Positions 27,811-55,507 of a DNA stretch of 64,000 nucleotides are shown piece after piece (positions within the stretch are counted from its first letter, which is position 1; each line of letters begins with the position of its first letter). The stretch covers positions 2,476,501-2,540,500 of the forward strand of contig NZ_CP093379.1 in the NCBI RefSeq assembly GCF_022655595.1, in the 5' to 3' direction. Under the pieces are notes generated by a model. That model saw nothing but the letters and a program-made list of their open reading frames with translations. It was not told where the DNA came from and made no database searches. The translations under genes and the position numbers were made by a program. This stretch comes from Ignatzschineria rhizosphaerae (GTDB lineage Bacteria; Pseudomonadota; Gammaproteobacteria; Cardiobacteriales; Wohlfahrtiimonadaceae).

Positions 27811-27886
<76 letters not shown>

Positions 27887-27907
27887 TTACTGCATTGCAG
27901 GAATAGG

Positions 27908-27936
27908 ATTATAGGGAGGAAAAAACCTTCTGTCAA
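27908..27936 (-). promoter_or_regulatory. Promoter of tRNA-Thr copy 1
   Basis: Minus-strand TTGACA (27931-27936), 17-base spacer, TATAAT (27908-27913): a full sigma-70 consensus about 22 bases upstream of the tRNA. Confidence 0.85.
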
Positions 27937-28039
27937 CTCTTCCTAGAAAAATTTGCCACAGATATTCCCCATCCCTTACATAATGTTCTTATCCATCTTA
28001 TTTTAACAAGGCATTTCTCTTCATACGCTTCCCATAATG

Positions 28040-28160
28040 AATATACCGGCGCATCGGTATGAGAATCGCAAGAATCGTTCTATCGGGCATCTAGTAAGCT
28101 CGTTTGATGCACACATTGTACAATTTTGCTTTGAGAGCAGCGCTTCTTAAACTGAATCGA
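28040..28160 (+). repeat. Dispersed intergenic repeat, copy C
   Basis: Lies between the two tRNA-Thr cassettes. It begins ACCGGCGCATCGGTATGAG, continues CGCAAGAATCGTTCTATCGG and CGTTTGATGCACACATTGTAC, and ends TTAAACTGAATCGA. The left terminal segment is missing or diverged. Confidence 0.75.
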
Positions 28161-28226
28161 CTAGACGATACTCTTACATACATTCGCCTTACGCCTATAC
28201 GCCTATATTGATGAAGGCAAGAAAAA

Positions 28227-28250
28227 ACCCAATACTTAAAAGTATTGGGT
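28227..28250 (-). terminator. Terminator of the second tRNA-Thr
   Basis: ACCCAATACT, TAAA, AGTATTGGGT: a perfect 10-bp stem with a minus-strand U-tract, 12 bases beyond the tRNA end. Confidence 0.85.
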
Positions 28251-28262
28251 TGATCTTTGATA

Positions 28263-28338
<76 letters not shown>

Positions 28339-30412: not shown

Positions 30413-30487
30413 TGGTGGGTCATGAGGGATTCGAACCTTCGACCAATTGGTTAAAAGCCAACTGCTCTACCACTGAGCTAATGACCC
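30413..30487 (-). tRNA. tRNA-Lys (anticodon TTT), copy 1
   Basis: A 75-base tRNA on the minus strand: acceptor GGGTCAT, D-arm AGCTCAGTGGTAGAGC (one base shorter than in E. coli), anticodon loop CTTTTAA, T-arm GGTTCGAATCC, 3' CCA encoded. TTT with the Lys acceptor identity is clear. Confidence 0.97.
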
Positions 30488-30501
30488 AAAGAAGAGTTAG
30501 T

Positions 30502-30529
30502 ATTATAGTGATTTTTCACTAGAGGTCAA
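30502..30529 (-). promoter_or_regulatory. Promoter of tRNA-Lys copy 1
   Basis: Minus-strand TTGACC (30524-30529), 16-base spacer, TATAAT (30502-30507). Confidence 0.8.
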
Positions 30530-30606
30530 CTCTATTTTTGGATAATTTTTACCTAAAAGATAAAAATTTTTGAGAAATACTTCTATTCATCCAATCTCGG
30601 AGGATA

Positions 30607-30636
30607 AAAAAATCTCCTAAAAGGAGATCTTTTTAA
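30607..30636 (-). terminator. Terminator of tRNA-Lys copy 2
   Basis: ATCTCCT and AGGAGAT with an A-rich loop and A/T flanks, adjacent to the tRNA 3' end. Confidence 0.8.
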
Positions 30637-30638
30637 TT

Positions 30639-30713
30639 TGGTGGGTCATGAGGGATTCGAACCTTCGACCAATTGGTTAAAAGCCAACTGCTCTACCACT
30701 GAGCTAATGACCC
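30639..30713 (-). tRNA. tRNA-Lys (anticodon TTT), copy 2
   Basis: Same 75-base sequence as copy 1, with encoded CCA and its own promoter and terminator. Confidence 0.97.
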
Positions 30714-35150: not shown

Positions 35151-35627
35151 ATGCGTAAAGATCCTTATAATCTGACAGAACTTCTCTCTCCTTCAATCGA
35201 AGCGATGGGATACAAGCTTTGGGGCATTGAGTTTCATCCCAATACAAAAAATGCGATTCTTCGTCTTTATATAGATAAAGAAGATGGGATTGGCATTGAG
35301 GATTGTGAGATTGTGAGCAACCAAGTCGCAGGTCTTCTTGATGTTCATGATCCTATTACTATGGCTTATACTTTAGAAGTATCATCGCCAGGACTCGATC
35401 GTTACTTTTTCTACCCAGAACAGTTCGCAGCCTATAAAGATCAATTGATTGCCTTCCAACTACGTTCCGCAATCAATAACCGTCGCCGTTTTCAAGGTAA
35501 AGTCATTGACGTGACGGATACCGAATTAAGTATTAGTATGAAACTTGAAAATGACCAGTTTTCTGAAGAGCCGATATTAGTTCCTTTATCAAATATTGAT
35601 CGAGCACAACTCGTGATCGACTTTTAA
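35151..35627 (+). CDS. rimP: Ribosome maturation factor RimP
   Basis: A 158-residue cytosolic factor for 30S assembly. The family features are LLSPSIEAMGYKLWGIEF, RLYIDKEDGIGIEDCEIVS, and YTLEVSSPGLDRYF at the domain junction. GGAAAG precedes the ATG. It leads the operon rimP-nusA-infB-rbfA-truB, with nusA 24 bases downstream. Confidence 0.96.
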   Translation: MRKDPYNLTELLSPSIEAMGYKLWGIEFHPNTKNAILRLYIDKEDGIGIEDCEIVSNQVAGLLDVHDPITMAYTLEVSSPGLDRYFFYPEQFAAYKDQLIAFQLRSAINNRRRFQGKVIDVTDTELSISMKLENDQFSEEPILVPLSNIDRAQLVIDF

Positions 35628-35651
35628 AATTTATAAAAGAGAGTTCTCAAC

Positions 35652-37145
35652 ATGAATAATAAAGAAATAATGCTCGTTGCGGAAACCGTATCTAATGAAA
35701 AAGGCATCTCTCGTGATGAGATTTTTGCTGCATTAGAATTTGCGTTAGCAGCAGCTGCACGTAGAACTTATACCATTGATGTTGATCTTCGTATTGAGAT
35801 TAATAAAGCTGATGGTTCTTATCGTACATTCCGCCGCTGGATGGTGGTAGAAGATAATCTTCCTCAAGAAGAGCAAGTTCCTACACGCCAAATTACGCTT
35901 TCAGCGGCACAAATTGACGACCCAGAGATTCAAGTTGGGGACTTTATTGAAGATGAAATTGATAATATTCCATTTGCGCGCATTGGTGCACAAACGGCTA
36001 AACAGATCATTTTCCAAAAAATTCGTGAAGCAGAAAGAATGCAAATGGCTCGTCGCTATGAGCATCGTATCGGTGAGCTCATCCGTGGTACGGTAAAACG
36101 TATTGATCGCGGTAACTTCTATATTGATATCGGCGATAACGATGAAGCATTCTTAGCAAAAGAGAATATGATTCCTCGTGAATCTCTTCGTATCGGCAAT
36201 CAAATCCGTGCCGTTCTGGAAGAGATTAGTATGGATAATCCAAGAGGCCCACAGATCGTTCTTTCCAGAAGAAGTGATGATCTTATCAAAGCGCTTTTTG
36301 AGATTGAAGTCCCTGAGATTAACCAAGGTTCTATCGAGATCATTGCCGCAAGCCGTGATCCTGGTAGCCGCGCTAAAATTGCGGTAAAAACACATGATCA
36401 ACGTATCGATCCTGTAGGTGCTTGCGTGGGAATGCGTGGTTCACGTGTTCAAAATATTACTAAAGAACTCGCAGGAGAGCGTGTTGATATCGTACTTTGG
36501 GATGAAAATCCTGTACAGTTCGTCATCAACGCCATGTCACCTGCAGAAGTTCTCTCTGTTGTGGTCGATGAGGATCATCACATGATGGATATCGCGGTTA
36601 GCCAAGATAAACTTTCTCAGGCAATTGGCCGTGGCGGACAAAACGTTCGCTTAGCATCAAAACTCACAGGTTGGGAACTCAACGTCATGGGTAGTGAAGA
36701 TGCACAACAAAAATATGAGAAAGAATCAGGTCGTACGCTGGATCTCTTCATGGAAGGTCTTAACGTGGATGAAGAGGTTGCTGAAATCCTCATCCGTGAA
36801 GGATTCTCCACCATTGAAGAAGTTGCTTATGTCCCTGTTGTCGAGATGCTTGAAATTGAAGAGTTTGATGAAGATATCATCGAAGCCCTTCGTGATGCCG
36901 CTGTTGAAGCATTAAATAATAAGAAAGCATTACTCCAAAACTTAGGGGATGCAGCACCAACTCCAGAACTCATCAGCGCACTTGATGACAATGAGTTACT
37001 TGCCATTACACTCGCAAAAAATAATATTCGCACATTAGATGATTTAGCAGAACTCTCAACAGATGAGCTATGCGAACTCATTGCAATCGATGAAGAAGAT
37101 GCAAGTAAGTATATTATGGCTGCAAGACAGAGCTGGTTTGAATAA
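35652..37145 (+). CDS. nusA: Transcription termination/antitermination factor NusA
   Basis: RNA polymerase-binding elongation factor, 497 residues. Order: N-terminal polymerase-binding domain (1 to about 130), S1 domain (GELIRGTVKRIDRGNFYIDIG near 137), two KH domains (VGACVGMRGSRVQNI and LSQAIGRGGQNVRLA), and two acidic C-terminal AR repeats (EEVAEILIREGFSTIEEVAYV and the last 70 residues) as in the E. coli form. Confidence 0.97.
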   Translation: MNNKEIMLVAETVSNEKGISRDEIFAALEFALAAAARRTYTIDVDLRIEINKADGSYRTFRRWMVVEDNLPQEEQVPTRQITLSAAQIDDPEIQVGDFIEDEIDNIPFARIGAQTAKQIIFQKIREAERMQMARRYEHRIGELIRGTVKRIDRGNFYIDIGDNDEAFLAKENMIPRESLRIGNQIRAVLEEISMDNPRGPQIVLSRRSDDLIKALFEIEVPEINQGSIEIIAASRDPGSRAKIAVKTHDQRIDPVGACVGMRGSRVQNITKELAGERVDIVLWDENPVQFVINAMSPAEVLSVVVDEDHHMMDIAVSQDKLSQAIGRGGQNVRLASKLTGWELNVMGSEDAQQKYEKESGRTLDLFMEGLNVDEEVAEILIREGFSTIEEVAYVPVVEMLEIEEFDEDIIEALRDAAVEALNNKKALLQNLGDAAPTPELISALDDNELLAITLAKNNIRTLDDLAELSTDELCELIAIDEEDASKYIMAARQSWFE

Positions 37146-37196
37146 TATGAATAGATAATTTTAGCTAGACATAGAGTGTCTACTTGGAAGATAAGA

Positions 37197-39821
37197 ATGA
37201 GTGAAAAAGATAAAACAAAAAGCCCATCAAAAATTACGTTAAAACGCAAAACCCATACAGAGTTAAAAGTTGAAACAGCTCCTGGGCAAGCACGTACGGT
37301 TCCTGTTGAGGTTCGTCGTAAACGTACTTATGTGAAGCAGAAACCTGAAGACAATGTTGTAACACCAGATGAGATGGATATCTCAGTTGCAGCGGAAGAA
37401 TCAGTTTCTGACGCTTCGGCTGTTGCTCAAAAAGCAGAAAAAACTGAGGCTCTTCCGGTAGACACCCCTGAACCAAAAGTAGAAATCGTAAAACAAGAAG
37501 TGAATACTTCAGAGAACACAGATAAAGCCGAGATGGAAGCAAAACGAAAAGCGGAACAAGAGGCAAAACGCCTTGAAGCTGATAGAGTTCAAAAAGAACG
37601 TCAAGTCGCTGCTAAAGAGCGCGCAGAACGCGAACTTGAAGAGAAAAAAGAAGCTGCAAAAGCGAAAAAAGAACAGCGTGATCGTGCACAACAAGAAGAG
37701 ATTGCTCGTCTTAATCGCATGGCATCAGCCACAGAAAAACCGGTATCAAAAGTAGCGATTCAATTCCAAACACAAGAGGAAGAAGCGCCTGTTGAAGAAC
37801 CTGTTATCGAACCTATTGTTAATGATGAAGAGGATGCACCGATTATTAAATCTGTGAAACGTTCTCCAAAATTAGAAGAAGGTAGTGCTGATAAGAAACC
37901 TCGTAAATCTAATGCTCGTCGTCATGATCGTGATGATAAAGATTTACGTGCGGAGATCTCTCTTAAGCGTGAAAATAAACGAGGTAATAGCCAAAACCGC
38001 CGTCAAACCAAACGCTCACAAGCACCACAACAACATGGTTTCCAATTGCCAACTGTCACAAAACAGGTGGAAGTAGATTTAGGTGAAACCATTAGCGTTG
38101 CAGATCTTGCACACAAAATGTCAGTGAAAGCCGCTGAAGTTATTAAAGCGCTCATGAACTTGGGTTCAATGGTGACAATTAACCAATTACTTGATCGTGA
38201 AACTGCAGCCATTGTGGTTGAAGAGATGGGTCATACCTTTAAATTTGTAAGTGAAAATCCTCTAGAAGAAGAGCTCATCGCTTCAATTGAACAAGGGGGT
38301 ACAGATCTTATTAAACCTCGTCCTCCTGTTGTAACAATCATGGGTCATGTTGACCATGGTAAAACATCACTTCTTGACTATATCCGTAAAGAACATGTTG
38401 CAAGCGGTGAAGCAGGTGGGATTACTCAGCACATCGGTGCATATCATGTAAAAACAGATAAAGGCGTAATCTCGTTCTTAGATACTCCAGGACACAGTGC
38501 ATTCGCCGCAATGCGTGCTCGTGGGGCAAAAGTCACAGATATCGTGGTACTTGTTATCGCAGCAGATGATGGCATCATGCCACAAACAATTGAAGGGATT
38601 CAGCATGCTAAAGCATCTAATACGCCGGTGATTGTGGCGGTAACTAAAGTGGATAAACCTACCGCTGATAAAGATCGTATCATGTCAGAATTGACACAAT
38701 ACGGCATTGTTTCTGAAGAGTGGGGCGGTGAGAACCTCTTTGCCTTTGTTTCTTCAAAAACAGGGGAAGGCATTGACCATCTATTAGATCAGATCTTAGT
38801 ACAAGCGGAAGTTTTAGAACTAAAAGCAATTGCTGAAGGTCCTGCTCGTGGTTCTGTGATTGAGTCTAAGCTCGATCGTGGTCGTGGTCCTGTTGCTTCT
38901 ATCTTAGTTCAATCAGGTCTTCTTAAAAAAGGGGATATCCTTCTTGCCGGTTATGAATATGGCCGCGTAAGAGCATTGATTGATGAAAATGGACAACAAG
39001 TTGATAGCGCGTCTCCTTCTATTCCGGTAGAAGTAATTGGTCTATCTGGGGTTCCTAATGCAGGGGACGAAGTTATGGTCGTTCCTGATGAGCGTAAAGC
39101 CCGTGAAATTGCGCTTTTCCGTCAAGGTAAATTCCGTGAGATCAAACTTGCAAGACAACATAAATCAAAACTTGAAAACCTCTTTAATTCAATGGGTGAA
39201 GCAGAAACAAAACGCCTCAACATTGTGCTTAAAGCAGACGTTCAAGGTTCTATCGAAGCAATTGTTAATGCGCTTCATGAGTTATCAAATGATGAAGTAA
39301 CGGTAACCGTTGTCGCAAGTGGCGTAGGTGGTATTACAGAATCTGATGCAAACTTAGCAGTCTCTTCTGATGCACTTGTCATTGGATTTAACGTTCGTGC
39401 GGACAATAGTGCTCGTAGAATTATTGAAGAAGAAGGTTTATCTCTTTACTACTACAGCGTGATCTATGATGTCATTGATGAAGTGACAAAAGCATTAATT
39501 GGTAAACTTGCTCCACAATTTAAAGAACAAATCATTGGTATCGCAGAAGTTCGTGATGTCTTTAGATCTCCAAAAATTGGAGCAATTGCCGGCTGTATGG
39601 TAACGGAAGGTTTAATTAAACGTCATAGCCCAATCCGTGTCCTTCGTGATAATATTGTGATCTATGAAGGCGAACTTGAATCATTACGTCGCTTTAAAGA
39701 TGACGTTAACGAAGTTCGTGCAGGTATTGAGTGTGGTATCGGTGTGAAAAACTATAATGATGTTCGCACAGGTGACCAAATCGAAGTATTTGAAACAGTG
39801 GAAGTAGAACGCAAACTATAA
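37197..39821 (+). CDS. infB: Translation initiation factor IF-2
   Basis: GTPase that places initiator tRNA on the 30S subunit. From the ATG at 37197, preceded by GGAAG, it has 874 residues. A long charged, repetitive N-terminal region (about 1-285, rich in [15 protein letters not shown]-type helix) leads to the IF2-N module, the G domain with [17 protein letters not shown] and TKVDK, and the C-terminal beta-barrels binding fMet-tRNA. An upstream start at 37176 would add seven residues without a ribosome site. The stop overlaps the rbfA start. Confidence 0.97.
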
Positions 39822-40213
39822 TGAGTAATAATTCACGTTTAAAACGCATAGATGAGCAGCTCCGTCAGGAGCTCTCAATGCTTATTCGCAAAGAGATCAG
39901 TGATTCACGTGCCATGATGGTTTCCATCACCTTAGTGGAAACGGTACGGGACTTTTCTCAAGCTAAAGTCTATATCACCTATTTAGGTCCTAAAGAGGAA
40001 CGAGGTGAAATTATCGACTTACTCCATGAGTATGGTCCTGAATTTCGCCGTCAACTTGGGAAGATATTACGCTTACGGACGATTCCTCGTTTTCATTTTA
40101 TTTACGATGATCTCCTTGAAAAGAGTAATGCGATCACTTCCCTTATTACAGAAGCGATTCGTTCCGACGAACTAAAAGCTGAGAAAAATCGCCCAGATGA
40201 ATCAGAAGATTAA
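39821..40213 (+). CDS. rbfA: Ribosome-binding factor A
   Basis: A 130-residue cold-adaptation and 30S maturation factor with a KH-like fold: RLKRIDEQLRQELSMLIRKE at the start and LRLRTIPRFHFIYDDLLEKS toward the end. It begins with the last base of infB (TAATG) and overlaps truB by 17 bases, so translation of all three is coupled. Confidence 0.96.
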   Translation: MSNNSRLKRIDEQLRQELSMLIRKEISDSRAMMVSITLVETVRDFSQAKVYITYLGPKEERGEIIDLLHEYGPEFRRQLGKILRLRTIPRFHFIYDDLLEKSNAITSLITEAIRSDELKAEKNRPDESED

Positions 40214-41117
40214 ACATAAACGCCGTCATATTGACGGCATTTTGCTTTTAGATAAACCTAAAGGCATCACTAGTAACCACATTTTACAAAGAGTAAAAAG
40301 ACTCTTCAATGCTGAAAAAGCAGGCCATAGCGGAACATTAGATCCCATGGCAACAGGCATGCTGCCCATCTGTTTTGGAGAAGCAACCAAATTTGCAGGT
40401 CAACTTCTGGATAACCACAAAACTTATCAGTTTACCTGTAAGCTTGGGGAAAAAACCTCAACCGGAGATGCCGAAGGCGAAATTATTGAAACAAAGGCTA
40501 TTGCGGAAAATTTAACAGCCTCACACATAGAAAATGCCCTCAATAGCTTTCTTGGGGAGATCTCCCAAATTCCTCCAATGGTTTCCGCTCTTCATCATGA
40601 AGGTAAAAGACTTTATGAACTCGCGCGAGAAGGAATTGAGGTTGAGAGAAAAGCCCGTAATATTACGATTTTGTCACTGACTTTAGATGAGTTTAATGAA
40701 ACCTCTTTTACCGCAACCGTTACCTGTTCTAAAGGGACTTACGTTAGAGTATTAGCAGAAGATATTGCCCAAAACTTACAAACAGTGGGGCATTTAACAA
40801 TGCTTAGAAGAGTGACTATTCATCCTTTTGAAAATGAGACCTTAATTCCTTTTTCAAAAATAGAATCATTAAAAGATCAATTAGATAGTTTAGATGCTTT
40901 ATTACTTCCGATTGATCGTGCCGTCACTGATTTACCAATACTCACCTTTAATCAGGAGGATTCTGCCCGCATTCTTCATGGACAAAGGATACGAATAGAA
41001 GGTACACTCGATAGTAATTTATATCGCCTCTACAGTGACGATAACCAATTTTTAGGGATCGGTGCGCCTAATACGCCAACCTCAATTGGCCCGAAACGCA
41101 TCATCCAACAAAGTTAA
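40197..41117 (+). CDS. truB: tRNA pseudouridine(55) synthase TruB
   Basis: A 306-residue enzyme forming pseudouridine 55 in the T-loop of tRNAs. The catalytic aspartate is D49 in HSGTLDPMATGMLP; GILLLDKPKGITSN and CSKGTYVRVLAEDIA are other family motifs, and a PUA-like C-terminal end is present. The ATG lies inside rbfA. Last gene of the operon. Confidence 0.96.
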   Translation: MNQKIKHKRRHIDGILLLDKPKGITSNHILQRVKRLFNAEKAGHSGTLDPMATGMLPICFGEATKFAGQLLDNHKTYQFTCKLGEKTSTGDAEGEIIETKAIAENLTASHIENALNSFLGEISQIPPMVSALHHEGKRLYELAREGIEVERKARNITILSLTLDEFNETSFTATVTCSKGTYVRVLAEDIAQNLQTVGHLTMLRRVTIHPFENETLIPFSKIESLKDQLDSLDALLLPIDRAVTDLPILTFNQEDSARILHGQRIRIEGTLDSNLYRLYSDDNQFLGIGAPNTPTSIGPKRIIQQS

Positions 41118-41171
41118 ATTTTTTAATTGAGATTCACTTTTTTAATTTTTAATATTTATTTTGGAGGGTTT

Positions 41172-42425
41172 ATGAGTTATCAACATATAGTTGTGCCAAC
41201 GGGTGAGAAAATTACCATTAACAAGGATTTTTCTCTCAATGTACCCAATAATCCCATCATCCCTTTTGTTGAAGGGGATGAGGTGGGTGCAGAAATCACC
41301 CCAGTGATGAAAAAAGTCATTGATGCTGCTGTTGAGAAAGCTTATGGAAATGAGAAAAAAATCTCATGGATGGAAGTTTACGCAGGTGAAAAATCTACAA
41401 AAGTTTACGGTAAAGATGAATGGTTACCTAAAGAGACTTTAGATGCGCTTAAAGAGTTTATTGTTTCTATTAAAGGCCCTTTAACAACACCAGTTGGTGG
41501 CGGTATCCGTTCACTTAACGTAACAATGCGTCAAACACTTGATCTTTATCTCTGTATGCGCCCCGTACAATACTTTGCCGGCGTTCCTTCACCTGTGAAA
41601 GAGCCTGAAAAAGTAGATATGGTTATTTTCCGTGAAAACTCAGAAGATATCTATGCAGGTATCGAGTGGGAAGCAGGATCACCGGAAGCAAAAAAAGTGA
41701 TCGATTTCTTACAAGGGGAGATGGGCGTTAACAAAATTCGTTTCCCAGAGACTTCAGGTATTGGAATTAAGCCTGTTTCAATCGAAGGAACTAAACGCCT
41801 TGTTCGTAAAGCGATTCAATACGCCATCGACAATGATAAACCTAATGTCACCCTTGTACATAAAGGAAATATCATGAAATTCACAGAAGGTGGATTCCGT
41901 GATTGGGGATATGAGCTTGCTCGTGAAGAATTTGGGGCAACCTTAATTGGTAATGGTCCATGGTGTGAATTTAAAAACCCAAAAACAGGAAAAATGATCA
42001 CTGTTAAAGATAGTATCGCTGATGCTTTCTTACAACGTATCCTTTTTGAACCTGAAAAATATACCGTTGTGGCAACATTAAACTTAAATGGTGACTACAT
42101 CTCAGATGCGCTCGCTGCGCAAGTGGGTGGTATCGGTATTGCGCCAGGGGCGAACCTTTCAGATTCCATCGCGATTTTTGAAGCAACTCATGGTACAGCA
42201 CCTGATATTGCCGGTAAGAATATTGTCAATCCTGGTTCCATTATTTTATCAGCAGAGATGATGCTTCGTCATTTAGGCTGGACTGAAGCTGCTGATTTAG
42301 TCATTAAAGCGTTAAATGGGGCTATTAGTTCGAAGAAAGTGACTGCAGACTTCGCTAAGATGATGAAAGATGCAACACAAGTCTCTACAAGCGAATTTGG
42401 AGACGTAATGATTAGCAATATGTAA
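41172..42425 (+). CDS. icd: Isocitrate dehydrogenase, residues of the NAD-dependent type
   Basis: TCA-cycle enzyme oxidising isocitrate to 2-oxoglutarate; 417 residues from the ATG at 41172, preceded by GGAGG, and collinear with E. coli Icd. Substrate residues around S114 (GGIRSLNV; S113 in E. coli) are kept. The adenosine-binding site differs: the NADP-specific K344 and Y345 of E. coli are D345 and I346 here ([10 protein letters not shown]), and Y391 and R395 are A392 and K396 (VTADFAKMM). These are changes that switch specificity toward NAD in engineered and natural enzymes, so NAD use is inferred. A strong terminator follows. Confidence 0.95.
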
Positions 42426-42450
42426 TCATTATTTTCTCTAGAGAAGGAAA

Positions 42451-42475
42451 AAGCCTCTAATAAAATTAGAGGCTT
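42451..42475 (+). terminator. Terminator of icd
   Basis: AAGCCTCTAAT, AAA, ATTAGAGGCTT followed by TTTT: a perfect 11-bp stem. Confidence 0.9.
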
Positions 42476-42571
42476 TTTTGTGTCCGGTCATTTTTGTTCT
42501 ATAGGTTACTAATTAATGCATAACTAACAATTCAATGGAACAACTAACTCCCTTACTTTCTTACTTAAATA

Positions 42572-42775
42572 TTAAGCAGGTTTACAAACAGTTGTTTGAA
42601 GACCACGATCTGACTCTTTGGCATCAAACTCAACTTTTTGACCTTCCGCTAAAGTACGAAAGCCATCACCTTGGATAGTAGAGAAATGTACGAATACATC
42701 AGCACCACCGTCATCAGGAGTGATAAAACCGAATCCTTTGGATTCATTGAACCATTTTACAGTTCCAATACGCAT
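42572..42775 (-). CDS. Cold-shock domain protein (Csp family)
   Basis: A 67-residue single OB-fold nucleic-acid chaperone: [20 protein letters not shown] with RNP1, then [17 protein letters not shown] with RNP2. The ATG at 42775 with GAGGT upstream is chosen; the frame extends 13 codons upstream without family support. Which Csp paralogue (C, D or E type) is not decidable. A strong leader hairpin lies 55-83 bases before the start. Confidence 0.92.
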
Positions 42776-42829
42776 AAAAAACCTCAAAAATAAATCTATA
42801 TGATTTAAAATCATATTTAAAAATAGAAA

Positions 42830-42858
42830 CTGTCTACGCTACATTTGTAGGTAGACAG
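42830..42858 (-). promoter_or_regulatory. Leader hairpin upstream of the csp gene
   Basis: CTGTCTAC and GTAGACAG pair perfectly, and the enclosed CTACAAATGTAG can form a second small stem. It is in the divergent region with folK, upstream of csp. Structured 5' leaders control several cold-shock genes; an operator is the alternative. Confidence 0.45.
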
Positions 42859-42925
42859 CTCTAACATTAAGCGGAAATTCCACTAAATGCAAGATATATA
42901 TTTTAATTATTTAAAAAGGTCCTCT

Positions 42926-43405
42926 ATGCACATCGCTTACCTATCCCTTGGTTCAAACATTAATAATCCTCTTGAACAGATCAAAATCGCCCTCAAAGAG
43001 ATTGATAATATTCCAAAAATTAATCTATTAAATATTTCCTCTCTTTATAAAACACCGCCTATTGGGCCAAAACAACCCGATTTTATTAATGCCGCTATTA
43101 AGATTAATACCTCACTTTCAGCACATGATCTGCTCACAAAAATGCAAGAAATAGAGCAAGCACATCATCGAAAAAGAGAGATCCATTGGGGGCCTAGAAC
43201 GCTTGATATTGATATAATTTTATTTAATAAAGAGCAGATCTCTACAGAAAGACTCACCGTTCCACACCCTTTTATGCAAGAGCGAGCTTTTGTTTTGGTT
43301 CCTTTACTGGAAATAGAACCCATGCTAGAAACACCACAACATGGCTCCTTACAAGAGATCTTAAACAAATTGCCAGAGCGCCATGAAATTCAAATCATTG
43401 CATAA
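42926..43405 (+). CDS. folK: Dihydropterin pyrophosphokinase
   Basis: Folate-pathway enzyme transferring pyrophosphate from ATP to 6-hydroxymethyl-7,8-dihydropterin. From the ATG at 42926 (AAGGT upstream) it has 159 residues: IAYLSLGSNINNP at the start and the HPPK signature WGPRTLDIDIILF near residue 90-102. A 13-codon upstream extension lacks similarity. Single gene, divergent from csp. The following 280 bases hold nothing else that I recognise. Confidence 0.95.
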   Translation: MHIAYLSLGSNINNPLEQIKIALKEIDNIPKINLLNISSLYKTPPIGPKQPDFINAAIKINTSLSAHDLLTKMQEIEQAHHRKREIHWGPRTLDIDIILFNKEQISTERLTVPHPFMQERAFVLVPLLEIEPMLETPQHGSLQEILNKLPERHEIQIIA

Positions 43406-43687
43406 TATTAAAGTTTAATTCGCCATTAATCTTCCCATAATAGTCTCTTAAATATCTTCAGGTGATTTTGATAAATCTTCCATAATCACCGATTTTGAGA
43501 GTAAAAATTAAAAAAGATAATCCTTTCCTAAAAGGATCCTATCCCAAATCTATTAATGATTTTAAAGTCACTTCTCTTTGAAATCTTCGTAAAACCCCGA
43601 GATTTATCTCGTAAGATCAGCTCATAATAATATCGTTCAATAAATTTAAAATTGCGATTATTCCCCAAAACAACAAAAGGATTTTCT

Positions 43688-44281
43688 ATGAAAAAAATTG
43701 TCATTGCTAGTAATAATGCCGGTAAGATTGCTGAATTTAAAGCACTTTTTGAGCCATTAGGAATTGAAACACTCTCTTTAAAAGAGGCAGGAATTATTTC
43801 AGATCCTGAAGAGACAGGCCTTACTTTTATCGAAAATGCCCTTATTAAAGCAAGAAACGCGGCCAAAATAAGTGGATTACCTGCGCTAGCTGATGATTCA
43901 GGCCTTGTTGTCCCCCATTTAAATGGCGAACCTGGCATTTACTCAGCAAGATATAGCGAAGAAGCAACCGATAGTGCTAATAATGCCAAGCTATTACAAA
44001 AAATGAGCAACTTTCAAGATCAGGAACGCGCCGCTTACTTTAAAGCTGTTTTAGTCCTTGTTCGTGATGAAACAGATCCCGTTCCTTTAATTGCTGAAGG
44101 GGAAGCTCATGGTTTTATTACGAAAGAAATTTTAGGTTCTGGCGGATTTGGCTACGATCCTCTCTTCTATTTTCCTGATAAATCTCAAACTTTTGGCGAA
44201 TTATCGAGTGAGGAAAAAAATCAAATTTCACACCGAGCGATCGCTCTTCAAAAGCTATCAACAAAATTAAATACTTTATAA
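43688..44281 (+). CDS. rdgB: Non-canonical purine NTP pyrophosphatase RdgB
   Basis: House-cleaning enzyme hydrolysing ITP, dITP and XTP. From the ATG at 43688, with AAGGA upstream, it has 197 residues. Motifs: IVIASNNAGKIAEF, LADDSGLVVPHLNGEPGIYSARY, GFGYDPLFYFPD and QISHRAIALQKL. It appears monocistronic and is followed by a 410-bp gap containing DnaA boxes. Confidence 0.96.
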   Translation: MKKIVIASNNAGKIAEFKALFEPLGIETLSLKEAGIISDPEETGLTFIENALIKARNAAKISGLPALADDSGLVVPHLNGEPGIYSARYSEEATDSANNAKLLQKMSNFQDQERAAYFKAVLVLVRDETDPVPLIAEGEAHGFITKEILGSGGFGYDPLFYFPDKSQTFGELSSEEKNQISHRAIALQKLSTKLNTL

Positions 44282-44298
44282 ACAACTAGATAGAACAG

Positions 44299-44480
44299 TT
44301 ATACACAAAAAATTTAAATCAAGGTAGGATAAGTTATCCACAAAAATGTGGATAAGTAGTGGATAACTTTCATCTTTTTTATCGACAAACTCCTCCATAT
44401 ATTTGTACATGGACTTTTCAACAGCGAAAAATAGGCTTAAGATAAGTTATTCACTGATTTTTACCAAAAACTGTGGATAA
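44299..44480. other. DnaA-box cluster, rdgB-brnQ intergenic region
   Basis: Exact TTATCCACA boxes at 44334-44342, 44347-44355 and 44472-44480, plus one-mismatch boxes at 44299-44307 (TTATACACA) and 44358-44366 (TTATCCACT on the minus strand). The first two exact boxes face each other four bases apart. The next 200 bases to the brnQ start are extremely AT-rich, like a DNA unwinding element. A candidate origin or DnaA-titrating locus. Confidence 0.6.
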
Positions 44481-44690
44481 CTATAGCTGCTCATCATCAT
44501 CTATTCTTTATAAAAGAGATGATATTAATAAAAGACCACAAGAATTTATTCATTTGATAGCAGTTTGGATTCGATCATTTATCCAATGATCTATAAAATT
44601 TAAAAAATATGAAATTTAGCTTTTAAGTTTTAATTTTTATAATTAGTCGTTAAAAATACGATTAAAACTCAAATTTAGTAGAGAATTTGT

Positions 44691-46022
44691 ATGTCAAAGA
44701 GAACATTATTTATAGGGTTTATGTTATTTGCCCTGTTTTTTGGTGCCGGTAACTTAATATTCCCACCTACAGTTGGGCAATTAAGTGGTACAAACTTTAT
44801 TCCGGCAATTATTGGTTTTATTGTCACAGGTGTTGGTCTTCCATTAATAGGAATTATTGCCGGGTCTTTCTCTGAAGAAGGATTTAGATCTGAAGCAAAA
44901 CGCATCCATCCTCTGTTTGCGATTCTTTTTATGGTCACAATTTACCTGACCATTGGACCTTTCTTTGCTATTCCAAGAACAGCAATGGTCTCTTATGAAA
45001 TGGCAGTCCTCCCTTTCCTTGAAGGAGGAATTGAGACAATATCTTCAAAAATAGGCTTTGCAATTGTCTATTTTGCTTTAACCTTTTATCTAGCACTAAA
45101 CCCATCAAAACTCGTTGAAAGAGTTGGCCAAATCTTAACGCCTGCACTTTTATTAACGATTGTTTTATTGATTATCAGTGCTTTCTTTAAGCTTGATGCC
45201 CCCATTACAGAAGTGAGCCCACAATTTACAAGAGATCCTTTCTTTGTCGGTTTCTCGGAAGGTTATCAAACAATGGATACAATCGCGGCAGTCGCGTTTG
45301 CAATGATTGTTATCACAGCTGTAAAAGCAACGGGTTTAACAAAACAAAAAGATATCTTTAAACAATCTTCTATAGCCGCAGTCATTGCCGGTGTTGGATT
45401 AGGTCTTGTTTATATTTCTCTTGCTTGGATTGGAAATAACTACCCATTAAGCCCAGAAGAAGCAGCAGGGGGGAATATGGGGACTTCAATCTTAACGGGA
45501 GTTGCACGCCTGACTTATGGTGAAGGTGGTCGTATTCTCTTAAGTTTAATTGTATCGCTAGCATGTTTGACAACGGCAATTGGTTTAGTAGTAGCTGTTA
45601 GTAGCTATTTCCATGAGCTATATAATAAAATCTCGTATCAAGTCTATGCAGTGATCTTCTCCTTGATTAGCTTTATTTTAGCAAGCCAAGGATTAAGCTC
45701 TATCATCATGGGCGCTGTGCCGATTTTATTAATCATCTACCCAATTACGATCGTATTGATTGTTTTAATCTTCATTGATCGTTTCTTACGTGGTATGCCA
45801 AATCTTGCATTCCAATTACCTATTTATGTGACACTTATCATTAGTGCACTCTCAGTAACCCTTGGTTATGTGGGTGATTCAACATTTAAAATCAAAGCGA
45901 CAGAGCTATTATCGTACCTTCCTTATCAAAGTAGCGATATGGGCTGGATGATTCCTGCTGTTGTAGCGCTTTTAATAGGAATTGTTTTAGGTAAAGCCTT
46001 TAAAACAAAACAAGGGATCTAA
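44691..46022 (+). CDS. brnQ: Branched-chain amino acid:cation symporter BrnQ
   Basis: Inner-membrane importer of leucine, isoleucine and valine (LIVCS family), 443 residues and about 12 hydrophobic helices. It begins MSKRTLFIGFMLFALFFGAG followed by NLIFPPTVGQLSG, the family signature; YQTMDTIAAVAFAMIV and a YPITIVLIVL helix follow. Likely monocistronic with its own terminator. It is flanked on both sides by gaps containing DnaA boxes. Confidence 0.94.
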   Translation: MSKRTLFIGFMLFALFFGAGNLIFPPTVGQLSGTNFIPAIIGFIVTGVGLPLIGIIAGSFSEEGFRSEAKRIHPLFAILFMVTIYLTIGPFFAIPRTAMVSYEMAVLPFLEGGIETISSKIGFAIVYFALTFYLALNPSKLVERVGQILTPALLLTIVLLIISAFFKLDAPITEVSPQFTRDPFFVGFSEGYQTMDTIAAVAFAMIVITAVKATGLTKQKDIFKQSSIAAVIAGVGLGLVYISLAWIGNNYPLSPEEAAGGNMGTSILTGVARLTYGEGGRILLSLIVSLACLTTAIGLVVAVSSYFHELYNKISYQVYAVIFSLISFILASQGLSSIIMGAVPILLIIYPITIVLIVLIFIDRFLRGMPNLAFQLPIYVTLIISALSVTLGYVGDSTFKIKATELLSYLPYQSSDMGWMIPAVVALLIGIVLGKAFKTKQGI

Positions 46023-46054
46023 TTTCGGTGAACTTGAAGGGACTAATAATCAGG

Positions 46055-46075
46055 AAAGCCGCTTAGTGCGGCTTT
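46055..46075 (+). terminator. Terminator of brnQ
   Basis: AAAGCCGC, TTAGT, GCGGCTTT with T-run, 32 bases after the stop. Confidence 0.9.
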
Positions 46076-46116
46076 TTTTATGATAATTTAGACCATTAAG
46101 TTTTAGCTTAGGATAA

Positions 46117-46278
46117 TTATCCGCAAAAAAACGGTAGAAATCTGTGGATAACTTAAAGATAAAAAAGAGTGAGATTTATCCAAATCTTCATCCAAAGATT
46201 TATATCAAGAGATATTCACATAAAAAATCAATGCAAAAGCTTGATTAATCCTCAATAATAAGGATAAATTGTGGATAA
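46117..46278. other. DnaA-box cluster, downstream of brnQ
   Basis: Exact boxes (TGTGGATAA strand) at 46143-46151 and 46270-46278, with one-mismatch boxes at 46117-46125 (TTATCCGCA) and 46176-46184 (TTATCCAAA). The gap is AT-rich and non-coding up to the binding-protein gene. Confidence 0.55.
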
Positions 46279-46371
46279 CTCTGTTCACTCATCATTATCT
46301 TTAAGATATAAAGAGAAGATAGTAATAAGTAGAAACAAGAATAGAAATAACTTTTTCAGTGTGAGGGTTTT

Positions 46372-47310: not shown

Positions 47311-47344
47311 TTATCCACTATTTTTTATGAAAAACTGTGGATAA
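47311..47344. other. DnaA boxes upstream of aroA
   Basis: One exact box at 47336-47344 (TGTGGATAA) and a one-mismatch box at 47311-47319 (TTATCCACT), facing each other just after the terminator. Confidence 0.5.
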
Positions 47345-47506: not shown

Positions 47507-48793
47507 ATGGAAAAATTATTTTTACCAAAAATAGCAAAAGCAGAGGGAATTGTGATAATTCCTGGTTCGAAAAGTATTTCAAACCGTATTTTGTTACTTG
47601 CCGCAATGACAGAAGGCGAGACGATTATCCACAATCTTCTCAAAAGTGATGACACGGATCGAATGTTAGAGGCATTGGCATTACTTGGAATTGAAGTGGC
47701 CTTGCTTGATGAAACAACAAGAACTTTTCGAGTCAAAGGAAATGGTGAAGGATTCCCTAATAAAAAAGCAGATCTTTTTTTAGGAAATGCCGGCACTGCC
47801 TTTCGCTCATTAACGGCGGCTGTTGCTGTTAATGGTGGTGAATATGCGCTTTCTGGTATACCAAGAATGCACGAAAGACCGATTAAAGACCTGGTAGATG
47901 CGCTTCGAGCCTTAGGTTTTAAAATTGATTATTTAGGACATGATGGCTATCCGCCTCTAAAGATCGGTAAGGGCTCACTTATCGCTGATGAAGTCTCAAT
48001 TAAAGGGGATGTTTCTAGCCAATATTTAACGGCATTATTAATGACTTTGCCGTTATTAAAACAGAAAATCACTATTAATATTGAGGGAGAATTGATCTCA
48101 AAACCTTATATTGAGATTACATTGATTCTGTTAAGAGCCTTTGGGGTTGAGATTAAGCATCATCATTATCAGCAATTTTTCATTCCTGATAATGCAGTCT
48201 TTAAAACACCGGGCGAATTTTATGTCGAAAGTGATGCATCGAGCGCTTCTTACTACCTTGCTTTAGGAATGTTTGGCGGTCCATTGACTGTAAAAGGCGT
48301 AGGGACAAACTCTATTCAAGGAGATATCCAATTTATTGATGCGCTTGAAATGATGGGGGCCGATATTACTTGGAAAGAGAATGAAGTGATTGTTAGAGCG
48401 CCTAAAGATGGGGTTATTAAAGGTATTGATCTCGATTGTAATCATATTCCTGATGCCGCAATGACATTAGCAACATTAGCCGTTTTTGCAGATCAAAAAA
48501 CAACTTTAAGAAATATTGGAAGCTGGCGCGTTAAAGAGACAGACAGACTTCATGCAATGGCTACTGAACTTCAAAAATTAGGGGTAACTGTTGAAGAGAG
48601 TGAAGATGCACTTGTGATCTATCCTCAAGAAGATCTGTTACAAGATGTTGCCATTGAAACTTATGATGATCATCGTATGGCGATGGCTTTTTCACTGCTT
48701 TCAATGAAAGAAGCTTTAACCATTTTAGATCCTCAATGTGTGGATAAAACATTCCCCACCTATTTTGAATTATTTAAAACAGTCACCGCATAA
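47507..48793 (+). CDS. aroA: EPSP synthase AroA (class I)
   Basis: Sixth shikimate-pathway enzyme, joining shikimate-3-phosphate and PEP. From the ATG at 47507 the 428-residue protein aligns with E. coli AroA from its first residue (MEKLFLPKIAKAEGIVIIPG). Motifs: GSKSISNRILLLAA, LFLGNAGTAFRSLTAA, GIPRMHERPIKDLVDALR, SSQYLTALLM, WRVKETDRLHAMATEL and YDDHRMAMAFSL. A GTG at 47468 could extend it by 13 residues, but nothing matches there. Two exact DnaA boxes lie within the gene. Confidence 0.95.
   Translation: MEKLFLPKIAKAEGIVIIPGSKSISNRILLLAAMTEGETIIHNLLKSDDTDRMLEALALLGIEVALLDETTRTFRVKGNGEGFPNKKADLFLGNAGTAFRSLTAAVAVNGGEYALSGIPRMHERPIKDLVDALRALGFKIDYLGHDGYPPLKIGKGSLIADEVSIKGDVSSQYLTALLMTLPLLKQKITINIEGELISKPYIEITLILLRAFGVEIKHHHYQQFFIPDNAVFKTPGEFYVESDASSASYYLALGMFGGPLTVKGVGTNSIQGDIQFIDALEMMGADITWKENEVIVRAPKDGVIKGIDLDCNHIPDAAMTLATLAVFADQKTTLRNIGSWRVKETDRLHAMATELQKLGVTVEESEDALVIYPQEDLLQDVAIETYDDHRMAMAFSLLSMKEALTILDPQCVDKTFPTYFELFKTVTA
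47625..47633 (+). other. DnaA box within aroA
   Basis: Exact TTATCCACA in coding DNA. Confidence 0.4.
48739..48747 (-). other. DnaA box within aroA
   Basis: Exact box on the minus strand (TGTGGATAA on plus). Confidence 0.4.
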
Positions 48794-49258: not shown

Positions 49259-50035
49259 ATGATGGACTTAAAAGACTCTTCCCTAGAAGATTGCGATAGT
49301 TTAATGCAAAATCATGCACCCTTAGAGATTCTCTATCAAGATGAAGAGATCATTGCCATTAATAAACCTTGTGGTTGGTTTGTTCATCGTTCTTTATTAG
49401 ATCCTAAAGTGACAGAGATTGTTTTACAACATCTTCGAGATCAAGTAGGACGTTATCTTTATCCCGTTCATCGTCTTGATAGACCAACTTCCGGCGTTTT
49501 ATTATTGGCATTTAGTGCATCGAGCGCGCGTTTTCTTTCTGAGCAATTTATGCATGATCAGGTTGAGAAAGAGTACTTAGCTATTGTAAGAGGGTATCTT
49601 TTTGATAAGGACAAAATTGAGCATCCTTTATCGGTTATTTTAGATAAAATTGCCGATAAAGGCATTGAGAAGAAAGAGGCGCAATCCGCTTTGACAGAGT
49701 ATGAAGGATTAGCACAAGTAGAACTTGAGTTATCCACAGGTAAATATCCAACCTCACGTTACTCTTTAGTCTCATTAAAACCTAAAACAGGGCGAAAACA
49801 CCAATTGCGCCGGCATATGAATCATATTGCTCATCCTATTGTAGGCGATACAACTTATGGTGACTTACGGCATAATAGGCTCTTTCTCCAAGAGTTTGGT
49901 ATCAATAGGCTACTCTTACATGCTTATAAAATAAAGATCATTCATCCTATTACCAAAAAGGAGCTTACTATTGAAGCTCCTTTGGATGAGTTGTGGATAA
50001 CTCTGTTAATAGCGCTGGGATGGAAAATTCCCTAA
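49259..50035 (+). CDS. truC: tRNA pseudouridine(65) synthase TruC
   Basis: RluA-family pseudouridine synthase for U65 of tRNA-Ile and tRNA-Asp. The 258-residue protein matches E. coli TruC in EILYQDEEIIAINKPCGWFVHRS, the catalytic VHRLDRPTSGVLL (aspartate after RL), YPTSRYSLVSLKPKTGRKHQLRRH and GDTTYGDLRHNR. The first 22 residues are an extension relative to E. coli; an internal start is possible. It follows the pseudopilin gene by 12 bases and converges on the Sel1 gene with 10 bases between stops. Confidence 0.93.
   Translation: MMDLKDSSLEDCDSLMQNHAPLEILYQDEEIIAINKPCGWFVHRSLLDPKVTEIVLQHLRDQVGRYLYPVHRLDRPTSGVLLLAFSASSARFLSEQFMHDQVEKEYLAIVRGYLFDKDKIEHPLSVILDKIADKGIEKKEAQSALTEYEGLAQVELELSTGKYPTSRYSLVSLKPKTGRKHQLRRHMNHIAHPIVGDTTYGDLRHNRLFLQEFGINRLLLHAYKIKIIHPITKKELTIEAPLDELWITLLIALGWKIP
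49730..49738 (+). other. DnaA box within truC
   Basis: Exact TTATCCACA in coding DNA. Confidence 0.4.
49992..50000 (-). other. DnaA box near the 3' end of truC
   Basis: Exact box on the minus strand, in the last 15 codons. Confidence 0.4.
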
Positions 50036-55498: not shown

Positions 55499-55507
55499 TG
55501 TGGATAA
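55499..55507 (-). other. DnaA box at the SUKH gene start
   Basis: Exact box on the minus strand, overlapping the possible GTG start of the SUKH gene. Confidence 0.4.

Follow-up and report, generated by a model that had tools for sequence, protein, structure and literature searches.

The question raised by this locus is whether two clusters of DnaA boxes flanking brnQ mark the chromosome replication origin, oriC, or serve some other DnaA-related purpose. The window, by which the whole stretch of 64,000 nucleotides is meant, corresponds to G000:C1:2476501-2540500, in a genome (G000) assembled as a single contig of 3,074,733 bp. A sequence-only reading had found an origin or a DnaA-titration locus plausible here, and had remarked that dnaA and dnaN are absent from the window. 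Both were indeed mapped outside it, dnaA at C1:55-1392, some 554 kb from the box clusters, and dnaN at C1:2305936-2307033, and therefore neither adjoins the clusters. The record evidently starts at a cut made at dnaA, whose neighbours include mlaE and the gene for 16S rRNA (cytidine(1402)-2'-O)-methyltransferase. On the circle, dnaA and dnaN lie about 0.77 Mb apart, the usual dnaA-dnaN cluster being broken up.

The two gaps, here designated oriC1 and oriC2 (Table 1), contain exact TTATCCACA boxes at 44334(+), 44347(-), 44472(-), 46143(-) and 46270(-), the five announced by the sequence-only reading, as well as five boxes with one mismatch (44299, 44358, 44379, 46117 and 46176), of which it had counted at least four. 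The inverted pair that it had described, with four bases between the two members, occupies 44334-44342 and 44347-44355. Its expectation of less than one exact box per 64 kb is in line with the base composition, which predicts 0.78 for the window, where 11 were observed. Boxes with no more than one mismatch number 42 in the window, compared with a mean of 17.1 in 100 shuffled versions (sd 4.1, largest 26), and 10 in the two gaps with brnQ (2,090 bp), compared with a genome background of 0.62 per 2.09 kb, as derived from 40 sampled stretches of G000 (601 kb, including 10 kb of masked N). The genome as a whole has 44 exact boxes vs 37 expected from base composition, and 21 matches to the reversed-pattern control. 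Fourteen of these 44 fall within 23.5 kb (2,520,834-2,544,303), an interval that was picked after inspection of the data. Exact boxes missed by the sequence-only reading extend rightward from the clusters through aroA and truC (Table 1) and continue past the end of the window. Nowhere outside 2.52-2.545 Mb are three exact boxes found within 10 kb of each other. The stretch at 44.5-44.69 kb, already noted as AT-rich and resembling an unwinding element, is 79.5% AT, and its 50-bp segment at 44592 is the second least stable in the 64 kb; in the AT-rich DNA that follows the last oriC2 box, the 50-bp stability is such that only 0.4% of window positions are less stable. GATC sites number two in oriC1 and zero in oriC2, for a window mean of 5.4 per kb.

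Table 1. Features of the brnQ locus and its surroundings (positions in the window)
Feature	Positions	Strand	Basis
rimP-nusA-infB-rbfA-truB-icd-folK-rdgB	35151..44281	+	identified genes
oriC1, rdgB-brnQ gap: box cluster, module 1, AT-rich tract	44282..44690		74% AT, boxes, conservation, skew break
inverted exact box pair (44334+, 44347-) with one-mismatch box 44358-	44334..44366		box search, conservation
module 1, TGTGGATAA-N9-CTCATCATCAT	44472..44500	+	exact-pattern search
AT-rich tract, candidate DNA unwinding element	44501..44690		79.5% AT, computed stability
brnQ, branched-chain amino acid carrier, between the two halves	44691..46022	+	identified gene
oriC2, brnQ-argT gap: boxes 46117, 46143, 46176, 46270 and module 2	46023..46371		70.5% AT
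module 2, TGTGGATAA-N9-CTCATCATTAT	46270..46298	+	exact pattern; within direct repeat of module 1
AT-rich tract following module 2, also a candidate unwinding element	46294..46371		computed stability
exact DnaA box 5' of aroA	47336..47344	-	box search
exact DnaA box within aroA	47625..47633	+	box search
exact DnaA box within aroA	48739..48747	-	box search
exact DnaA box within truC	49730..49738	+	codons TTA TCC ACA, same in 8/8 genus genomes
exact DnaA box within truC, 262 bp from the 49730 box	49992..50000	-	kept in 7/8 genomes
exact DnaA box overlapping start of SMI1/KNR4-family gene	55499..55507	-	same overlap in G007 (L185)

Strand asymmetry was sampled in 40 stretches distributed over the genome, to which four stretches flanking the window and four subdivisions of the window itself were added. 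Positive GC skew runs from 2.51 Mb past the end of the record to 0.99 Mb; the arm between 1.125 and 2.508 Mb is negative, and the stretches starting at 1,050,001 and 2,508,501 have values close to zero. Thus, one sign change of the sampled skew lies between the stretches starting at 2,492,501 and 2,508,501 and a second near 1.05-1.13 Mb, and dnaA shows none. An origin at dnaA was rejected, since the skew does not flip there and the 14 kb read around the gene (6 kb on its upstream side, 8 kb on its downstream side) contain a single exact box. The stretch G000:C1:1050001-1065000, with its near-zero skew, a GC content of 31% where other stretches mostly have 37-40%, and no masked bases, is a probable terminus region; a dif search with a 25-mer pattern, in which up to 3 mismatches were allowed, gave 0 matches, an uninformative result. 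Apparent AT-rich islands (26%) at 150 kb and 2.6 Mb were dismissed as masked N stretches.

Within the window, the raw GC-skew minimum lies at 34-36 kb. The sequence-only reading had described the genes to the left of the clusters as mostly on the minus strand, a description that does not hold for 35151-44281, where the identified genes are all plus-strand, and the raw skew at 35-44 kb is biased for this reason. After control for gene strand and codon position, the minimum moves from 34-36 kb to the box cluster. Fourfold-site skew is -0.43 in folK and -0.56 in rdgB, on one side of the first cluster, and +0.03 in brnQ and +0.13 in argT. A changepoint model of fourfold-site skew with gene strand as covariate (114 genes, 144 kb) placed the best break at the first cluster, between rdgB (which ends at 44278) and brnQ (which starts at 44691); the runners-up, brnQ/argT and folK/rdgB, were worse by 3.4 and 5.1 log units. 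An origin at 34-36 kb was rejected because the rimP-rdgB genes keep the fourfold skew of the left arm, from -0.01 (infB) to -0.56 (rdgB), the breaks listed among them being at least 5 log units lower. This gene run heads toward the origin (head-on), and the corresponding rimP-truB block of genus g4 points away from it, which suggests an inversion beside the origin.

Related genomes place the switch less sharply. Fourfold skew pooled over 10 genomes was -0.23 in folK, -0.29 in rdgB, -0.08 in brnQ, -0.13 in argT, +0.02 in aroA and +0.11 in gspG, with -0.11 in icd (9 genomes) and +0.10 in truC (8 genomes). Since brnQ and argT are still negative and only aroA, gspG and truC are positive, the relatives give no sharp switch at module 1; the strand-asymmetry switch can therefore be placed only within the interval rdgB-aroA, which comprises both halves. 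In G006, a genome of the same genus (g1; single contig, 2.56 Mb), each of the ten stretches read between 1.17 and 2.30 Mb has negative skew, the value at 2.44 Mb is +0.13, and the modules lie in between, at 2.349 and 2.351 Mb; dnaA, at 1.929 Mb, is 418 kb away and shows no flip. The 8-kb pieces around these modules have skews of +0.001 and -0.032, and the piece just to their right is still negative. For G012 (g4), the rdgB/argT boundary, 0.8 kb from the nearer module, gives the best break, and a break on the opposite flank of the modules is just 0.7 log units worse. For G003 (g3), the best break falls at about 55.7 kb with the modules at 60.9 and 62.9 kb, that is, about 5 kb to the argT side. 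The distribution of parS-like sites in G000 agrees with a nearby origin: at one or two mismatches to the consensus, 15 were found, none exact, of which 10 lie within 280 kb of the clusters (6 sites in a reversed-pattern control).

The sequence-only reading had held that a distant skew minimum would speak against an origin; the switch was found at the locus, and oriC is therefore the main answer. Strand-asymmetry switch, DnaA-box cluster and adjacent unstable AT-rich DNA, the last by computed stability only, come together here, and we consider it highly probable that the clusters flanking brnQ together make up the chromosomal oriC, with one half on either side of the gene. In the mechanism that we envisage, DnaA would bind the high-affinity boxes in both halves, and the two DnaA complexes would probably touch, looping out brnQ, as reported for the dnaA-split origins of B. 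subtilis and H. pylori. DnaA would then open the AT-rich DNA beside module 1 (toward brnQ), beside module 2 (toward argT), or both, and at the opened DNA the helicase would be loaded and two forks would depart. That the modules are instead DnaA-controlled promoters of brnQ and argT seems hardly credible. Each does lie 5' of a plus-strand transporter gene, the last g4 module adjoins argT, and oriC2 has one promoter-like match (46089-46117); yet no sigma-70-like match overlaps either module, the region has 3 such matches vs 9.5 in shuffles, module 1 is about 0.4 kb from brnQ in g3, and the skew switch would be left unexplained.

Both halves of the putative oriC are built around the same element. 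The two gaps share a 47-nt direct repeat (72% identity, copies 1,798 bp apart) consisting of a DnaA box, TGTGGATAA, followed after 9 bp by CTCATCATNAT and then by unstable AT-rich DNA. The exact module pattern has 2 copies in the whole G000 genome, both in the brnQ-flanking gaps. Across 32 genomes of the order, it was detected in 14, namely in 14 of the 18 belonging to the family (f1) and in none of the 14 outside it, and the reversed-pattern control gave 0 matches in all 32. Of the family genomes, 17 gave a match in an rdgB search, the exception being G005; the RdgB of G000 has as its nearest named relatives those of I. ureiclastica (76%) and I. cameli (69%). The corresponding loci of G000 and 16 relatives were compared (17 in total), with readable loci for 8 genomes of g1 (G000 included) and 2 of g3. 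By a relaxed pattern, two modules were found in 14 of the 17, in three genera and including 4 of the 6 g4 genomes; G013 and G014 had one module, and G001 had none in the 3.8 kb read. G005, which also lacks a module, consists of about 20 contigs vs about 330 in G001. In all 16 genomes with a relaxed-pattern module, the adjoining 50-bp stretch is such that at most 1.9% of locus positions are less stable.

The gene order rdgB-[boxes]-brnQ-[boxes]-argT is found in 8/8 readable g1 and 2/2 g3 genomes, with a module spacing of 1.79-1.97 kb. In g4, the spacing is 261-430 bp, and the boxes occupy a single gap between argT-rdgB and a minus-strand block, which comprises, as far as the contigs reach, two ORFs beyond rimP-nusA-infB-rbfA-truB. 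Most simply, the pair of modules would be ancestral, with brnQ lying between them in g1 and g3. Spacing within the halves is also conserved: the exact inverted pair, with starts 13 bp apart, is retained in 7/8 g1 genomes along with another box 125 bp away, and G010, which has no middle box, keeps the 138-bp sum of these spacings, while two oriC2 boxes start 127 bp apart in all eight. Extra box clusters were observed near the putative origin in the other genera. In g3, a segment of about 0.6 kb between gspG and an MFS gene has five exact boxes (L192/L193: G003, G002), and in g4, G012 and G015 have three boxes on the plus strand, separated by 150 and 60 bp (L195/L196); these are possible datA-like or titration sites.

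A bipartite, twin-module form of oriC is very likely, and it can be compared with known systems. The bipartite origins of H. pylori and B. subtilis are described as oriC1-dnaA-oriC2, with two box clusters and an AT-rich tract beside a box, and in those parts of the literature that we consulted bipartite bacterial origins are split by dnaA (PMC8235120, PMC5043019, PMC7561715). The present locus resembles them in having two box clusters with one gene between and unstable AT-rich DNA beside a box, and differs from them in that the intervening gene is brnQ and not dnaA. What we propose is an oriC whose halves are separated by brnQ in place of dnaA and each carry a module of the unwinding type. A further difference is that the same module occurs in both halves here, whereas the accounts of the known cases map opening to oriC2 (PMC5043019, PMC7561715). 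By analogy, a single half could be the working unwinding site, the other being either a box cluster with a regulatory role or a module that is decayed or copied, a reading compatible with oriC to which we give slightly less than an even chance. The G000 skew break, which favours module 1, and the single modules of G013 and G014 are in keeping with it; the retention of both modules in 14/17 genomes across three genera and the unusually unstable DNA after both argue against it.

In E. coli, oriC has DnaA boxes of sequence TTATCCACA beside AT-rich DNA, and origins of this type are GATC-rich and bound by SeqA. The E. coli-type oriC of Gammaproteobacteria is also described as separated from dnaA (PMC8287927). 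The proposed origin shares with it the boxes beside AT-rich DNA and the position apart from dnaA; in contrast, it is split by a gene and has few GATC sites, in a family where neither SeqA nor Hda was clearly detected (see below). The module itself recalls the BUS, described as a DnaA-box, a short spacer and trinucleotides, with the trio consensus 3'-GAT-5' and a fixed middle A (PMC8287927). Here too, a box and a 9-bp spacer are followed by a trinucleotide repeat and then by AT-rich DNA. Opposite CTCATCATCATC, the complementary strand reads 3'-GAG TAG TAG TAG-5', with the required middle A, and at least three NAN trinucleotides lie no more than 16 bp from a box, a loose pattern often matched by chance. 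However, the repeat is 3'-TAG-5', which departs from the consensus in having a polarity opposite to that of the canonical trio 3'-GAT-5'. Reversed trio polarity is reported to block opening in H. pylori (PMC8235120), and for these two reasons the repeat is not classed as a DnaA-trio; it may work in a trio-like manner or be the site of another protein. The module box points away from its AT-rich side, and R1 of E. coli has the opposite orientation relative to its AT-rich side.

The truC box codons TTA TCC ACA are identical in 8/8 genomes of the genus. For invariant truC residues with at least four codons, the G000 codon is shared in 50% of cases on average, and 9 of 77 such residues are fully codon-identical, the three box codons among them. 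Some selection on the DNA itself is likely to act on the truC box, although truC has one other identical-codon run (R-H-N-R-L). Together with the 14 exact boxes in 23.5 kb, this codon-frozen box makes DnaA titration plausible as an added role of the outer boxes, and those conserved a few kb rightward, in truC, may hold back DnaA soon after their own duplication. In E. coli, boxes are likewise denser near oriC, an arrangement linked by the authors of that study to DnaA titration (PMC12371093); the present case differs in that almost a third of the exact boxes (14/44) fall within 23.5 kb and a coding box is frozen across the genus.

Model searches of the 18 family genomes detected no SeqA and no Hda above the cut-off, the best match to the Hda model being DnaA itself in 17/18. 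Both models responded in the E. coli control, and the Hda model also in most other controls. Six family genomes carry a DnaA-like ORF of 257-293 aa (G002:C35, G004:C22, G005:C3, G006:C1:1605221, G008:C1:829989 and G009:C11), which is absent from the matches listed for G000. It scores 28-41 bits to the Hda model (cut-off 195) and about 60-69 bits to DnaA, below the cut-off, and may be a divergent Hda-like protein or a mobile-element ATPase.

Such a setting could also suit a locus of the datA or DARS kind, which would titrate DnaA or control DnaA-ATP and be situated near the origin by coincidence; a control locus of this sort is a box group with an IHF site away from the origin. The many high-affinity boxes, their 23-kb extension to the right with the frozen truC box, the 0/18 counts for SeqA and Hda, and one IHF-like match in oriC2 at 46234 (one of 15 consensus matches in the window on both strands) point in that direction. 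Nevertheless, the first cluster coincides with the G000 skew break, both modules are followed by unstable AT-rich DNA, and exact boxes are not grouped by threes within 10 kb outside 2.52-2.545 Mb, so that we regard this explanation as very improbable. The oriC reading can be extended to a two-engine origin, in which each half would carry a complete family-specific unwinding module, with its DnaA box, 9-bp spacer, period-3 repeat of anti-trio polarity and AT-rich tract, and either could open, brnQ would intervene in two genera, and titration by a conserved set of outer boxes would replace control by Hda and SeqA; taken as a whole, this proposition is rather unlikely.

A search confined to the literature found no work on the Ignatzschineria replication origin or on a Wohlfahrtiimonas oriC, and the one match for oriC together with brnQ and DnaA boxes was a Corynebacterium genome paper. 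A paper on the classification of gammaproteobacterial oriC regions (PMC7174414) does not mention names of the Ignatzschineria group in its main text. As regards annotation, neither dnaA nor dnaN serves as an origin marker in G000. A dnaA-free split origin with a module in each half, if confirmed, and relatives that hold both modules in one gap (4/6 g4) would offer a natural comparison for the role of the split and for which module opens. The period-3 repeat is a candidate unwinding motif of unusual polarity that can be tested, and a lineage with no detected SeqA or clear Hda and with a codon-frozen box near its origin would be a natural test of the DnaA titration model.

No Rfam RNA element was found at gathering scores in the two brnQ-flanking gaps; elsewhere in the window, the Rfam matches are five tRNAs and a PreQ1 riboswitch. 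Two tRNA gene pairs of equal scores lie close together on the minus strand (27814-28338 and 30416-30713). The riboswitch (RF00522, 53840-53884) lies immediately 5' of queF, and the gene that comes after encodes a queuosine precursor transporter, an ordinary arrangement.
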